Source: Alphaproteobacteria bacterium | Lineage (GTDB): Bacteria; Pseudomonadota; Alphaproteobacteria; RS24 | Assembly: GCA_949498175.1 (NCBI GenBank) | Contig: CATDDF010000071.1 | Location: forward strand, 1-48,855 | DNA: 48,855 nt | Direction of reading: 5' to 3' | Shown here: piece by piece, positions 1,491-13,057 of the stretch | How the letters are laid out: each line of letters starts with the position of its first letter | Position numbering within the stretch: position 1 is the stretch's first letter | Program-made: the position numbers and the translations under genes | Notes under the pieces: model-generated | The model's input: the letters and a program-made list of their open reading frames with translations, nothing else | What the model was told of the DNA's origin: nothing | The model's database searches: none

Positions 1491-2186
1491 TTAAAAACCC
1501 ATATAGGTGACGACTTCATCCATTGGCGCACGCGGGCTTTCCAAGCCGTTAACCGAGGCGTCAGGGTCAGCATAGCCAAGCGCCAAGCCACAAAAGAAAA
1601 TATGGCTGTCAGGAATACCCAAATATTCCTTCACCGTCGGCGCCCAAATCGCCCATGCTTCTTGCGGGCATGTGTGCAAGCCACGCTCGCGCGCCAGCAA
1701 CATCATGGTCTGAATGAGCATGCCCATATCCGACCATTGGCCTTCTTGCATTTGCTTATCGAGAGAAAAGAACATGCCGACAGGCGCGTGGAAAAAAGTG
1801 AAATTGCTGGCCAGCCAAGCCAACCGCGCTGCTTTATCTTCGCGCGCCACTCCCATGATTTCATACATGCGTTCGCCAATATCAAAACGGCGGCCATTAT
1901 AAGGCTCGCTCAATTCGGGCGGGTAAATGTGATACTCCGAGCCTTCGCCCATCGGCTTTTCTTGGCCCTTTTCAGCAATCAGATTAACCAGCTTGTCGCG
2001 CGCATCGCCTTGCAGTACATGCACATTCCACGGCTGCAAATTGCCGCCGGACGGCGCGCGCACCGCCGTTTCGACAATATATTTCACATCGGCTTCAGCC
2101 ACCGGCTTGTCTAAAAAAGCACGGCAGGAAAATCGTGTATTAATGGCGTCGCTGACGCTGGGTGAGTTTTCGGTAAGTCTGCTCAT
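1491..2186 (-). CDS. Nitroreductase family FMN enzyme
   Basis: A 231-residue FMN-dependent nitroreductase-fold oxidoreductase; these reduce nitro compounds, quinones or flavins with NAD(P)H. The RFSCRAFLDKPV block near residue 20, APSGGNLQPWNVHVL near 45 and a C-terminal LALGYADPDA are classic for the family. The start is the ATG at 2186, preceded by GGGAGG; the open frame continues upstream but without family similarity. It is the first gene of the run leading into ccmI-ccmE-ccmF, so it may share their transcript, though no role in cytochrome maturation is known for this family. Substrate cannot be assigned. Confidence 0.9.
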   Translation of the reverse strand: MSRLTENSPSVSDAINTRFSCRAFLDKPVAEADVKYIVETAVRAPSGGNLQPWNVHVLQGDARDKLVNLIAEKGQEKPMGEGSEYHIYPPELSEPYNGRRFDIGERMYEIMGVAREDKAARLAWLASNFTFFHAPVGMFFSLDKQMQEGQWSDMGMLIQTMMLLARERGLHTCPQEAWAIWAPTVKEYLGIPDSHIFFCGLALGYADPDASVNGLESPRAPMDEVVTYMGF

Positions 2187-2247: not shown

Positions 2248-2750
2248 TCACGACAATGAGGGTGGGGGCAGATCAATAAAATGAACGGCAACCGCAATAC
2301 GCCCATCGGTAAATGTGCCCCCAATCGGCGACACGACGATATCCTCTTCGCGCCAATAAGTGCTCGGTGGATCGGCCGGGCCGGTGACAATCGTGTCTTT
2401 TTCCAAATCGAGATTAGAGCCGAAACGATCGGTTCCTGAATTTGTGCCCAAGCGCCATGCCGTCGGCCCGCTTATAGTGCTCAGAACGCGCGCCGTGACA
2501 CCCAGCAAAATAATATGCGACGGAATTTTCAAACCACCAAGACCGGCTGCCGGTTCAAAAACCGATTCCAATGTCTGAAACAGATGTGACGATTTCTCCG
2601 CTTGCAAGGATTGCCAGCCATTTGAGGTCAAAACCAGCATCTTGTTTTGCTCTTCATCCCATAATTGCCAGCCAAGCTGCGGCGTGACAAAAGCCCAACC
2701 GCTATCTTCATAAAGCGCCATAGCGCCATCATGGTCTTGCCATGCGCCGC
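2248..2750 (-). pseudogene. DUF2793 phage/GTA tail-region protein, 3' fragment
   Basis: This frame encodes the C-terminal part of a DUF2793 protein, a family found in tail regions of prophages and at the 3' end of alphaproteobacterial GTA clusters. Recognisable blocks are GAWQDHDGAMALYEDSGWAF, then TPQLGWQLWDEE, and near the end LLGVTARVLSTISGPTAWRL, GTDRFG and AVHFIDLPPP. Similarity starts abruptly near 2750. Upstream of that the same frame only reads through terminase DNA out of register, so the open frame that seems to begin at 2835 is an artefact of the junction. The N-terminal part and any start signal are gone, so the piece is almost certainly not translated as a functional protein. Confidence 0.75.
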
Positions 2751-2968
2751 GCCGGATGCTGGTGCGACGGTGCTTCAACGCGACCACGCACCCATTCGGC
2801 ACCGGCACGGGTCTTTCCGGCACCTCGCCCACCAAGCATCATCCAACAAGACCAATCACCGCCGGGCGGCAATTGATCGGGGCGCGCCCAAAAATCCCAA
2901 TGCCAATAAAGCGCCGCTATTTCTGCATCACTGAGCTGTCTCAGTATCTGCCGTCTCACCCGCGCCAT
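2729..2968 (-). pseudogene. GTA/phage large terminase (gp2-like), truncated after the Walker A motif
   Basis: The first roughly 75 codons of a GTA-type large terminase, the DNA-packaging ATPase. Visible are LSDAEIAALYWHWDFWARP and then GGDWSCWMMLGGRGAGKTRA, which contains the Walker A loop, followed by GAEWVRGRVE. A full terminase is about 400 residues or more; here the frame stops at 2729, and from about 2750 the DNA is the tail of a DUF2793 gene in another frame. The ATG at 2968 lies inside the 3' end of the gp1-like gene, the overlap usual for GTA genes 1 and 2. With Walker B, the nuclease domain and everything downstream missing, it cannot package DNA. Confidence 0.8.
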
Positions 2969-3242
2969 TCGCCAGCCCCGCCAATTTTTGTTCAATTTCG
3001 GCAATGAGTGCCTGGCGGGTTTGTGTGTCACTTTTTTCCGTGCGTTGTTTTTGTTTTTGCTGATGCGCGCGGTTAAGAACGTCAAAGGCGCGGGTCAGCA
3101 TGGTAACAATTCGGGCGCGCCGCTCCAGCGCTTCCGATGTGTCTTCTCCATCATCCGGTAAAGCGGCCTGCATGGCCTCCATATCGGCCAGCAAGTTTTG
3201 TTGCACGCTGTGCAAGCGGCTCTCGGTTTTATCGGTTTCCAT
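2928..3242 (-). CDS. GTA gp1-like small protein (possible small terminase remnant)
   Basis: A 104-residue, charged, helix-rich protein directly upstream of and overlapping the terminase fragment. Position, size and features such as EALERRARIVTMLTRAFDVL match GTA gene 1, regarded in Rhodobacter as the small terminase. The call rests mostly on position, because this family is poorly conserved. The frame is intact and starts at ATG 3242, with only a weak GAGG-like site about 20 bases upstream. With its partner truncated the protein has no evident job; it is either a decaying leftover or was kept for another reason. Upstream, 3243-3422 is a 180-base AT-rich gap that could hold the old GTA promoter; I see no clear sigma-70 site there. 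Confidence 0.55.
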   Translation of the reverse strand: METDKTESRLHSVQQNLLADMEAMQAALPDDGEDTSEALERRARIVTMLTRAFDVLNRAHQQKQKQRTEKSDTQTRQALIAEIEQKLAGLANGAGETADTETAQ

Positions 3243-3422: not shown

Positions 3423-3869
3423 TTATTGTTCCAGCGGCCAATCGGCGACGCGGTCTTCAGCATCCCCATCAAACGCCATTTCAGCAATCACCCGCCCCTT
3501 GACCGACATGCCCGCCTCAACCACCGTCTCGGCACGTCCTGATACCAAAGGATGCCAATCGGGCAAATCCTTGCCCTCATGCAATAGCCGGTAAGCGCAG
3601 CTTGGTGGCATGAAGTCGATTTTATCGAGATTGTCTTTGGTCAGCTTCACGCAATCGGGCACAAGTTTGGTGCGTTGCGTATAATGGGTGCAACGGCAGC
3701 TCTCTTGATCAAGCAAATTGCAGACAATATCGGTAAAAACGATTTCTTCGCTGTCTTCATCCTGCAGTTTCACCAAACAGCATTTGGCGCAACCGTCGCA
3801 AACGGCTTCCCATTGCGCGGCGGTCATATCAGCCAGTTTCACGCTCTCCCAAAACGGCTTTTCAGCCAT
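3423..3869 (-). CDS. YcgN/UPF0260 family cysteine-cluster protein
   Basis: A 148-residue cytosolic protein of the YcgN (UPF0260) family, whose conserved cysteines are thought to bind zinc or an iron-sulfur cluster; the biochemical role is unknown. The diagnostic CDGCAKCC motif is near residue 24, with further cysteines in the SCRCTHY and VPDCVKL stretches and in MPPSCAYRLL. Length and motif order match the family. The start at 3869 has AAGGGAG upstream. It is divergent from the ABC importer across a short gap. Identification as a family member is firm; function is not. Confidence 0.9.
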   Translation of the reverse strand: MAEKPFWESVKLADMTAAQWEAVCDGCAKCCLVKLQDEDSEEIVFTDIVCNLLDQESCRCTHYTQRTKLVPDCVKLTKDNLDKIDFMPPSCAYRLLHEGKDLPDWHPLVSGRAETVVEAGMSVKGRVIAEMAFDGDAEDRVADWPLEQ

Positions 3870-10734: not shown

Positions 10735-11142
10735 ATGTCGCTGCAAACATTGATGGATGATTTCGCCCTGTTCGACGATTGGGAGGAGCGGTATCGCTAT
10801 ATTATTGAACTGGGCAATGGGCTGAAGCCGCTTTCCGAGGCAGAGCATAATGATGCCAATAAGGTGCAGGGCTGTGTCAGCCAGGTCTGGCTGGTCAATG
10901 ACCGCAACGGCGATGCCATTAGTTTTCGTGGCGACAGCGATGCCCATATTGTACGCGGCTTGGTGGCCATTCTGCTTAATCTCTATGATGGTAAATCAGC
11001 GCAAGAAATTGCCGCCTATGATGCCGAAAGCGCCTTTCAGCAATTGGGGCTGGGCGAGCATTTGACACCGCAGCGCTCAAACGGCTTCTACGCCATGGTC
11101 CAGCGCATTCGAAATGATGCCGCAGCGGCCATGGGGCAATAA
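10735..11142 (+). CDS. sufE: SufE cysteine desulfuration protein
   Basis: A 135-residue SufE. It accepts persulfide sulfur from the cysteine desulfurase SufS and passes it to the SufBCD scaffold in Fe-S cluster assembly. The active cysteine is Cys47 in the conserved VQGCVSQVWL motif; the family C-terminus reads QRSNGFYAMVQRIRNDAAAA. The start has an ideal AGGAGG site. The gene stands apart from any suf operon here, as is common for alphaproteobacterial sufE. A diverged copy of its last 21 codons lies 148 bases downstream. Confidence 0.95.
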   Translation: MSLQTLMDDFALFDDWEERYRYIIELGNGLKPLSEAEHNDANKVQGCVSQVWLVNDRNGDAISFRGDSDAHIVRGLVAILLNLYDGKSAQEIAAYDAESAFQQLGLGEHLTPQRSNGFYAMVQRIRNDAAAAMGQ

Positions 11143-11227: not shown

Positions 11228-11290
11228 AACGGCTTTTACGCCATGGTTCAGCGTATCCGAAACGATGCAGCGGCAGCGCTGGCGGATTGA
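11228..11290 (+). pseudogene. Leftover 3' end of a second sufE
   Basis: Read in the sufE direction this stretch translates NGFYAMVQRIRNDAAAALAD and then TGA. The first 17 residues equal the C-terminus of the intact sufE (11080-11142), yet about ten of the 17 codons differ only at synonymous third positions. So the copy diverged while under protein-level selection, as expected of the tail of a separate functional allele and not of a recent duplication. No start or other sufE sequence precedes it. It overlaps the 3' end of the DUF6456 gene on the other strand. Confidence 0.8.
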
Positions 11291-12000
11291 TAGCCGTAAT
11301 GCACCGATAAGCGCATCAAAGCCAATTTCAGCATGATTTTGGCCGAGCGGCGCGGCAGCGCATATTTCTTCTCCGTCGCCTCCAGCCCGCTTTCAAGGCA
11401 ACACACATCCACCGCCATATCGGCAAGACCGGGGCCGATATAAGCAAGCGCCTGCGCCATGCGTTTTTGCGCATCCAAAACCCCTTGCGGAATATCATCA
11501 GCCTTGTTTGACGCGCTGCCATCGACATAAACAGGCCGCGACCAATCCATTGTCTGATGCGCCTCGCGCCGAGCGCGGTGAAAATCATCATGCAGGCGTT
11601 CACCCGCTTGCAATTCCATATCATTCAGACCGAATGCCTTGCTGCGACCGCGCGCCTGCAACCATTGCAAAGGCGTGCTCGCCAAATGTCGCGGCACGCC
11701 TTCGTGATCCGCCGCATTATCCAAATGATGTTGGGCGATGAAGTCGCCGCCCAAATGGCGGCGCAAATGGGCGCGCCCGACAGCACTCACCTCATAATCA
11801 TCACCATCGCGTTTAAGAAAATCTGCCTTCAACCAATCGACAAATTCAGCGCGATCAATGCGCGCAAGCTTTTTATCGCTTTTCCCTCGACGAATAAGGA
11901 CAAAATCTTCGTCTGCGCCTTCCTCTTCAATCAGCCTGGCGTGAGGCTGAAGCAGTTTTTTACCCAATTGGCGAAAGCGCTTTTCACTTTTTGTCATCAT
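11248..12000 (-). CDS. DUF6456 domain protein, probable DNA-binding regulator
   Basis: A 250-residue protein. Residues about 10-100 could form a winged-helix-like region (VDWLKADFLKRDGDDYEVSA), and the C-terminal part matches DUF6456 (ERLHDDFHRARREAHQTMDW, then DVCCLESGLEATEKKYALP and LKLALMRLSVHYG). The family pairs in Alphaproteobacteria with small DnaA-C-domain proteins, as here: the gene upstream overlaps it by 17 bases. The start at 12000 follows GGGAG by seven bases. The last dozen residues (after HYGY) are encoded by DNA antisense to the sufE leftover, so the natural C-terminus has been replaced. Function is unknown; a regulatory role is inference. Confidence 0.72.
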   Translation of the reverse strand: MMTKSEKRFRQLGKKLLQPHARLIEEEGADEDFVLIRRGKSDKKLARIDRAEFVDWLKADFLKRDGDDYEVSAVGRAHLRRHLGGDFIAQHHLDNAADHEGVPRHLASTPLQWLQARGRSKAFGLNDMELQAGERLHDDFHRARREAHQTMDWSRPVYVDGSASNKADDIPQGVLDAQKRMAQALAYIGPGLADMAVDVCCLESGLEATEKKYALPRRSAKIMLKLALMRLSVHYGYQSASAAAASFRIR

Positions 12001-12391
12001 TGGCGCACTCCCAACTGGCATCAAAAAATTCCTGCAAAGCAAGCTCGGCAAAATGCAAAGGGCGGTCATAATGCGGCAGGTCGCGCAGATCTTCGACGCG
12101 ATGGCAGCCATGCGCGATACTGGTGCGGTCGCGCGCCGCCATTTTGCTGATATCAGTAAAATTAATGCCGAACACGACATGCGCCAGATAATTTGCAATA
12201 TGACGCGCATCGGATAAATGCTTGCTGCCACGATTATGGGTCAGCAGAAATTCAGGTTTAGTGCGATGCGCCGAGGCCATATAGGAGAGCACCAAATTAT
12301 ATTGCGCCCGCCGTCGCAAAATCTCTTTCGCTTCGGTTTTGTGACCTTGATGGAATTTGTGAACCTGCTTGGACGCTTTGGCGACGGGCAT
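11984..12391 (-). CDS. Small protein with DnaA-type C-terminal DNA-binding domain
   Basis: A 135-residue protein whose C-terminal half resembles domain IV of DnaA: the stretch SDARHIANYLAHVVFGINFT, then DISKMAARDRTSIAHGCHRV, is the helix-turn-helix plus the signature helix that reads DnaA boxes. It lacks the AAA+ ATPase, so it is not an initiator; such short proteins could act as regulators at DnaA-box-like sites. The start at 12391 is chosen because AAGAGG lies seven bases before it; ATG 12412 is the alternative. It forms an operon with the DUF6456 gene. The 189 bases to the divergent MarR-like gene are AT-rich and probably hold both promoters, but no clear box stands out. Confidence 0.75.
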   Translation of the reverse strand: MPVAKASKQVHKFHQGHKTEAKEILRRRAQYNLVLSYMASAHRTKPEFLLTHNRGSKHLSDARHIANYLAHVVFGINFTDISKMAARDRTSIAHGCHRVEDLRDLPHYDRPLHFAELALQEFFDASWECANDDKK

Positions 12392-12580
12392 TACAAACCT
12401 CTTTTTACCCATTATCAATCGCTTGTCGGTCGCGTTCACATCTCCCAAAAAGCTTAACAAGAACAATAAGATAATTAAGTAAGCGCAAAAAATGAAGCAT
12501 GAATTTAGAAAACTGCGCTTGATGAAAATAATTTTTCGGCTAATCTCTTTTTACAAAGAAGAACAAAAAGGATTTTTCAA

Positions 12581-13057
12581 ATGGCACGACGCCAAAACCA
12601 TAAATTGACTGAGAAAGCGGCTCGTGATTTGGACGATGCATTCACCCTGCCCGAACAAATTACCACGCCGATTCACGGTTTGGAAAAAGACGGCCATGAT
12701 TTCGTCAATGCGCTTTTGCTCAGCTATCGCTTCGGCAATGATATTTTCGACACGCCAACCCCGCATCATGAGGATTGGATTATGCTGTTTGCCATACTGA
12801 CCAATGAGGCGGCCGGACGCGCGACCGTGACCAAAAATATTGTCGAAATTACCGGTCGCGCTTATGGCACGGTGCGCTCCTCACTGCACCGTTTTGAAGA
12901 GCTTGGCTATATTGAGCCGAACCAGCGCATCGGACGGTCTGACCTATATGTACCGACCGAAAAAATGAAAAAAATGGTCAATGATTCGGCCCGCAATTTT
13001 TGGGACCGCATCGGTCATTCGCGCCGCGCACGCAGCCGCGCCAAAAACATCGCCTGA
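12581..13057 (+). CDS. MarR-like winged-helix transcription regulator
   Basis: A 158-residue protein with a central winged-helix domain: WIMLFAILTNEAAGRATVTK, then the recognition region VEITGRAYGTVRSSLHRFEE and wing LGYIEPNQRIGRSDLYVPTE. The C-terminal tail is basic (RRARSRAKN). It is of MarR type by layout, but no ligand-binding helices are obvious, so it may respond to its DNA partner or to a protein. A good ribosome site (AAAAGGA) precedes the start. It is divergent from the DnaA-C/DUF6456 pair, whose promoter it might control. Targets unknown. Confidence 0.75.
   Translation: MARRQNHKLTEKAARDLDDAFTLPEQITTPIHGLEKDGHDFVNALLLSYRFGNDIFDTPTPHHEDWIMLFAILTNEAAGRATVTKNIVEITGRAYGTVRSSLHRFEELGYIEPNQRIGRSDLYVPTEKMKKMVNDSARNFWDRIGHSRRARSRAKNIA

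Follow-up and report, generated by a model that had tools for sequence, protein, structure and literature searches.

The stretch of DNA analysed here (48,855 nucleotides; hereafter the window), which is the complete contig C71 of a 1.68-Mb, 118-contig, 92.6% complete genome of an uncultured, apparently marine alphaproteobacterium, carries on its minus strand the remnant of a gene transfer agent (GTA) cluster of the RcGTA type. Very probably, this remnant was left by a deletion of about 14 kb, as one of a family-wide set of mostly independent and recent losses driven by the cost of GTA production. GTA loss as such is known already, and its recurrence at the tips of a single family is the new part; these parallel losses are an aspect beyond the single-window reading of the initial annotation of this sequence.

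The remnant locus and the ancestral cluster

On the minus strand gp1, a stump of the large terminase gene (terL) and a 3' piece of a DUF2793 gene follow each other in this order between a ycgN-like and a nitroreductase-like flank:

3423..3869, minus strand: ycgN-like gene, the gp1-side flank (family name from sequence only, without a profile scan)
2928..3242, minus strand: gp1, the first GTA gene (small terminase in RcGTA), 104 codons, apparently intact
2739..3031, minus strand: terL stump (GTA large terminase), first ~97 codons, overlapping the end of gp1 as in the congener G008
2739..2748, minus strand: deletion junction, ~10 nt (GGCGCATGGC), the overlap of two alignments to G008 contigs
2248..2748, minus strand: DUF2793 tail-fibre gene, 3' two thirds, start of its own absent
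1491..2186, minus strand: nitroreductase-like gene, the DUF2793-side flank

Sequence profile searches with the DUF2793 piece recovered PF10983 (6e-11) and phrog_15388 (4e-22), while the Pfam, PHROGs and NCBIfam models gave no convincing match for gp1 and the terL stump (E 0.1-0.2 for terL). Since the profile libraries are too weak for both of these genes, they were identified via relatives. The gp1 of the window shows 69% identity to that of G008 (E 9e-40) and 87% to that of G009; the terL stump aligns at 73% with residues 1-98 of the full 445-aa terL of G008 (E 5e-42), and the DUF2793 piece at 48% with residues 66-242 of the G008 protein (E 5e-52). The frame of the terL stump opens at a GTG at 3031 and runs to ~2739, with a stop at 2729, and retains an intact Walker A motif (GGRGAGKT), whereas the DUF2793 remnant, comprising the last ~166 of 246 codons, lies in another frame. 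Neither a stop nor a frameshift is present over the ~1000 nt of the stump.

The initial annotation had described a gp1-like gene on this strand, followed by a terminase start with its Walker A motif that directly meets a DUF2793 tail in another frame. The 104-codon gp1, the Walker A motif and the change of frame are all borne out, and G008 matches all three pieces in the comparison with close relatives that it had proposed. Its extents require revision: the terminase piece has ~97 rather than 75 codons, the junction lies at 2739-2748 rather than within about 2740-2760, and the "tail" makes up some two thirds of its gene. Its proposed HMM search of the fragments succeeded for DUF2793 and remained unconvincing for gp1 and terL.

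The presence of the same flanks around full clusters indicates that the two stumps come from opposite ends of a single locus. In the class-level relative G036 the order is permease-ABC-substrate-binding genes, ycgN, gp1, terL, portal, protease, capsid, tail genes, gp15 and DUF2793, with the nitroreductase a few genes further on; in G030 it is ycgN-gp1-terL through to gp15-DUF2793, so that in class-level relatives the full cluster directly follows ycgN. Within the family, one contig of G008 carries ycgN, gp1, the full 445-aa terL and the start of the portal gene before it ends, and another begins in gp15 and continues with a full DUF2793 and the nitroreductase. G012 and G015, from other genera, possess a full or nearly full terL together with gp15 and DUF2793, to which G012 adds the capsid. 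Hence ycgN adjoins gp1/terL in G008, G018, G036 and G030, and the nitroreductase adjoins DUF2793 in G008 and G012 and lies downstream in G036. The window shares each of these characters: gp1 precedes a GTA-type terL with the order and overlap seen in G008; DUF2793 is the gene of the far cluster end, where it follows gp15 in G008, G012, G015, G030 and G036; and the site is that of the full clusters, with both flanks in G008 and G036 and with ycgN in G030. The locus is thus what remains of an RcGTA-type cluster, and the earlier proposal that its pieces represent opposite ends of such a cluster is upheld by the full clusters between the same flanks.

The junction and the missing interior

Homology to G008 on the left stops at nucleotide ~292 of terL, and on the right it starts at nucleotide ~195 of DUF2793, joining terL codon ~97 to DUF2793 codon ~66. 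The initial annotation had advised a search for a short repeat at this point, and the two alignments do overlap by 10 nt, GGCGCATGGC, which encodes RRMA in the frame of terL, against RRIA in G008, and GAWQ in that of DUF2793, identical to G008. The junction would fit illegitimate recombination at a short match, as judged against G008, a diverged reference that does not give the exact ancestral sequence.

Searches of the 92.6% complete genome for capsid, portal, gp12 and gp15 gave no match to PF05065, PF04860, PF09343 or PF13547, and no terL was found beyond the stump; the genome thus lacks the set (capsid, portal, gp12, gp15, full terL) that defines a functional RcGTA-type agent. Given one clean junction, the lack of any other GTA terminase, portal, capsid, gp12 or gp15 gene and the lack of a disabling mutation in either piece, it is well supported that one recent deletion produced the locus, in agreement with the single event suggested earlier. 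Its size is ~14 kb by the spacing in G036, a class-level relative from which the lineage's own size may differ. None of the family members has the cluster in one contig, and the G008 interior is absent from the G008 assembly. Scanning IMG/VR with terL recovered no cluster above 55% identity, and scanning it with the nitroreductase gave no match, so that no full family cluster came from this source.

Parallel collapse in the family

The family was sampled as 28 genomes, one MAG per species, and the congeneric records, labelled Rhodobiaceae or Alphaproteobacteria, are MAGs of apparently marine origin. Searches of the 28 genomes for terL, capsid, portal, gp12 and gp15 found GTA genes beyond stumps only in G008, G012 and G015 and in a contig-end fragment of G018. 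Matches of capsid and portal in G002 (C117, L103) and of portal in G027 (C17, L243) are located away from the GTA locus and were disregarded as likely prophage genes. The same locus is collapsed in nearly all sampled members with differing leftovers, and the junctions of G000, G001, G003, G009, G011, G014, G019 and G021 differ:

G009: terL to codon 79 joined to DUF2793 ~190
G003: gp1 codon 46 joined to DUF2793 ~180
G011: gp1 codon 58 joined to DUF2793 ~192
G001: terL 45 joined to DUF2793 ~73
G019: terL ~49 joined to DUF2793 ~150
G021: terL, a gp15 piece and DUF2793 left
G005: only gp1 and terL left
G010: only DUF2793 left, with a stop (3-contig assembly)
G007 and G026: nothing left

The breakpoints cluster at both cluster ends, leaving up to ~0.5 kb on the left and mostly 0.7 kb or less on the right. 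A special deletion mechanism was considered for this pattern; the evidence reaches no further than selection for near-complete removal.

Three further observations concern individual genomes. In G023 (C52, L040, 9772-10394) the end of gp15 and the start of DUF2793 lie beside a substrate-binding gene and ycgN was not detected at L040; this deletion seems to include a flank gene. In G018 (C20, L107, 1-137) the terL frame loses its similarity to terL near the contig end, and this might be a collapsed locus. The DUF2793 alleles conflict with the species tree, that of G002 resembling those of G000 and G003 and that of G009 being nearer to G008 (L023 794-1534, L022, L037), which suggests exchange of tail-fibre alleles or old polymorphism.

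A tree of nine flanking proteins groups G008 with G002 and G011 (support 100), and this group joins {G000, G003, G007, G009} (support 94). As G008 is nested among collapsed species, five to six losses in the family follow if the cluster was never regained. The stumps provide stronger evidence. Between paired collapsed species their pN/pS is ~0.1-0.3 overall: for G000-G009 it is 0.14 (0.07-0.24) in gp1 and 0.11 (0.03-0.20) in terL; in gp1 it is 0.09 for G000-G003, 0.11 for G000-G011 and 0.15 for G001-G005; and in DUF2793 it is 0.16 for G001-G010 and 0.15 for G016-G019. DUF2793 is too diverged to inform in some pairs (G000-G009, G002-G008). With regard to age and INDEPENDENCE, comparable low-pN/pS pairs are also found in three other genera. 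Shared old losses would put these values near 1; the low values instead imply that the cluster was constrained for most of the divergence and that the losses were mostly independent and recent. The neutral share of the divergence (dN divided by flank dS) is at most ~6-15% in the tested pairs, the ages being rough, since several pairs approach saturation at synonymous sites. If the stumps are functionless, the sequences would point to at least seven separate late losses in the genus of the window (G000, G001, G003, G005, G009, G010, G011). The deletion in the window is recent, as had been proposed earlier, since the frames of its stumps are still open; its neutral divergence is no more than ~0.02-0.04, a bound resting on assumed indel-to-substitution ratios of 0.03-0.1, as against a flank dS of 0.63 to G003.

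It is against these data that other histories have to be weighed. A single old deletion, inherited from the family or genus ancestor and followed by differing trimming of the stumps, would accommodate the fact that every deletion observed in the genus contains the interval missing from the window, a nesting that taken alone allows it; and within g3 the close pair G023 and G025 (flank dS 0.11) probably does share an older loss. Yet the nested congener G008 keeps a full terL, the portal start, the gp15 end and a full DUF2793, and the stumps common to collapsed species evolve at pN/pS 0.1-0.3 rather than ~1; on the position of G008 and these ratios the old shared loss was rejected as quite improbable. 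The same low ratios in GTA-less species, together with the open gp1 frames in several of them, would be expected if leftover gp1 and/or DUF2793 were kept by purifying selection for a function outside the GTA, making recent loss unnecessary. This is unlikely, as the kept pieces vary from gp1 plus terL (G005) through DUF2793 with a stop (G010) to nothing (G007, G026), the DUF2793 pieces lack a start, the terL piece is a truncated ATPase, and stops occur in the stumps of G004, G010, G016, G021 and G025.

The assemblies bear on two further alternatives. Those of G008, G012 and G015, which have more of the cluster left, break inside it, as might be expected if assemblers had joined the two ends of intact clusters elsewhere. 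Assembler word lengths are usually longer than ~10 nt, however, and the overlap at the window junction is only about that long; moreover, independent assemblies show species-specific junctions, the 3-contig G010 also lacks the cluster, and the interior genes are not found elsewhere in the collapsed genomes, so that an artefact can hardly account for the locus. The same breaks, along with the very young age of the deletion, could alternatively mean that each species contains both GTA-plus and GTA-minus cells, the MAG representing a GTA-minus variant, and in theory GTA-minus cells are able to invade GTA-plus populations (PMC6209664). The GTA interior is nevertheless absent from the bin of the window and from other collapsed bins, which leaves coexistence a rather doubtful option, though one compatible with recent, mostly independent losses driven by the cost of GTA production.

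Activators, cost and relation to known GTA losses

The window retains the two genes for GTA activation, side by side at 8 kb from the remnant:

11248..11997, minus strand: gafZ-like GTA activator (DUF6456), intact; PF20057 2.4e-37
11984..12412, minus strand: gafY-like GTA activator (DnaA C-terminal helix-turn-helix), intact; PF08299 1.8e-7; 73% to G008
12581-13057: HTH gene neighbouring gafZ-gafY, intact

The genome accordingly has an activator of the kind expected of these agents, GafA or GafY/GafZ. GTA expression in Caulobacter requires gafYZ, which also suffice for it, and cells that produce the agent lyse (PMC9632790). In G003 and G007 the whole gafZ-gafY-HTH block is deleted (loci compared: L246, L247, L022), and the gene equivalent to window 10735-11142 is directly followed by an MFS gene; G002 retains a gafZ stub of 37 residues. 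In GTA-less species that keep gafYZ, their pN/pS of 0.02-0.25 indicates constraint. The simplest order of loss is the structural cluster first and the activators later, and gafYZ may also have a second role.

These observations suggest the following course of events. A single illegitimate recombination event at a short match (10 nt at most) would have deleted roughly 14 kb, from the ATPase domain of the terminase up to the first part of the tail-fibre gene, after which particle production would no longer be possible. Self-lysis makes GTA production costly, and this cost is the likely driver, such that GTA-minus cells would win in the short term; near-complete removal of the cluster would be favoured or at least tolerated, and gafYZ, which remain in the window, would tend to go later. 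In the model of Redfield and Soucy, GTA-plus populations are unable to withstand GTA-minus cells (PMC6209664), and Kogay et al. (2024), describing GTA pseudogenisation and loss in several lineages, suggested cheaters (PMC10883770). The present data fit the cheater view and add the tip position of the losses, and selection is not proven by them: the same picture would arise from a shared recent shift in conditions or from MAGs sampling polymorphism within species. More tentatively, and with some doubt, the confinement of loss to the tips might mean that GTA-minus lineages keep arising and spreading but die before forming clades, the costly GTA being kept on deep branches by differential lineage survival.

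Why bacteria retain a device that kills its user is an open question, and the answer bears on whether GTAs pay for themselves. A family with many recent collapses and readable breakpoints offers replicate natural losses, from which, with more genomes per species, the rate of GTA-minus origin, the coexistence with GTA-plus cells and their persistence could be read.

In its architecture the locus is reminiscent of the RcGTA-type clusters of Alphaproteobacteria (R. capsulatus, and CcGTA of C. crescentus), with gp1-terL and DUF2793 at opposite ends as in the clusters of its relatives, and its genome likewise has the gafY/gafZ activator pair. It differs in that, besides gp1, it retains just the first fifth of terL and the last two thirds of DUF2793, and no particle genes. 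Like the losses described previously (PMC10883770), it represents a cluster gone in a lineage whose relatives retain it; unlike them, the family of the window displays repeated losses at the same locus with resolved junctions, sequence evidence of recency for each loss, and separate loss of the activators.
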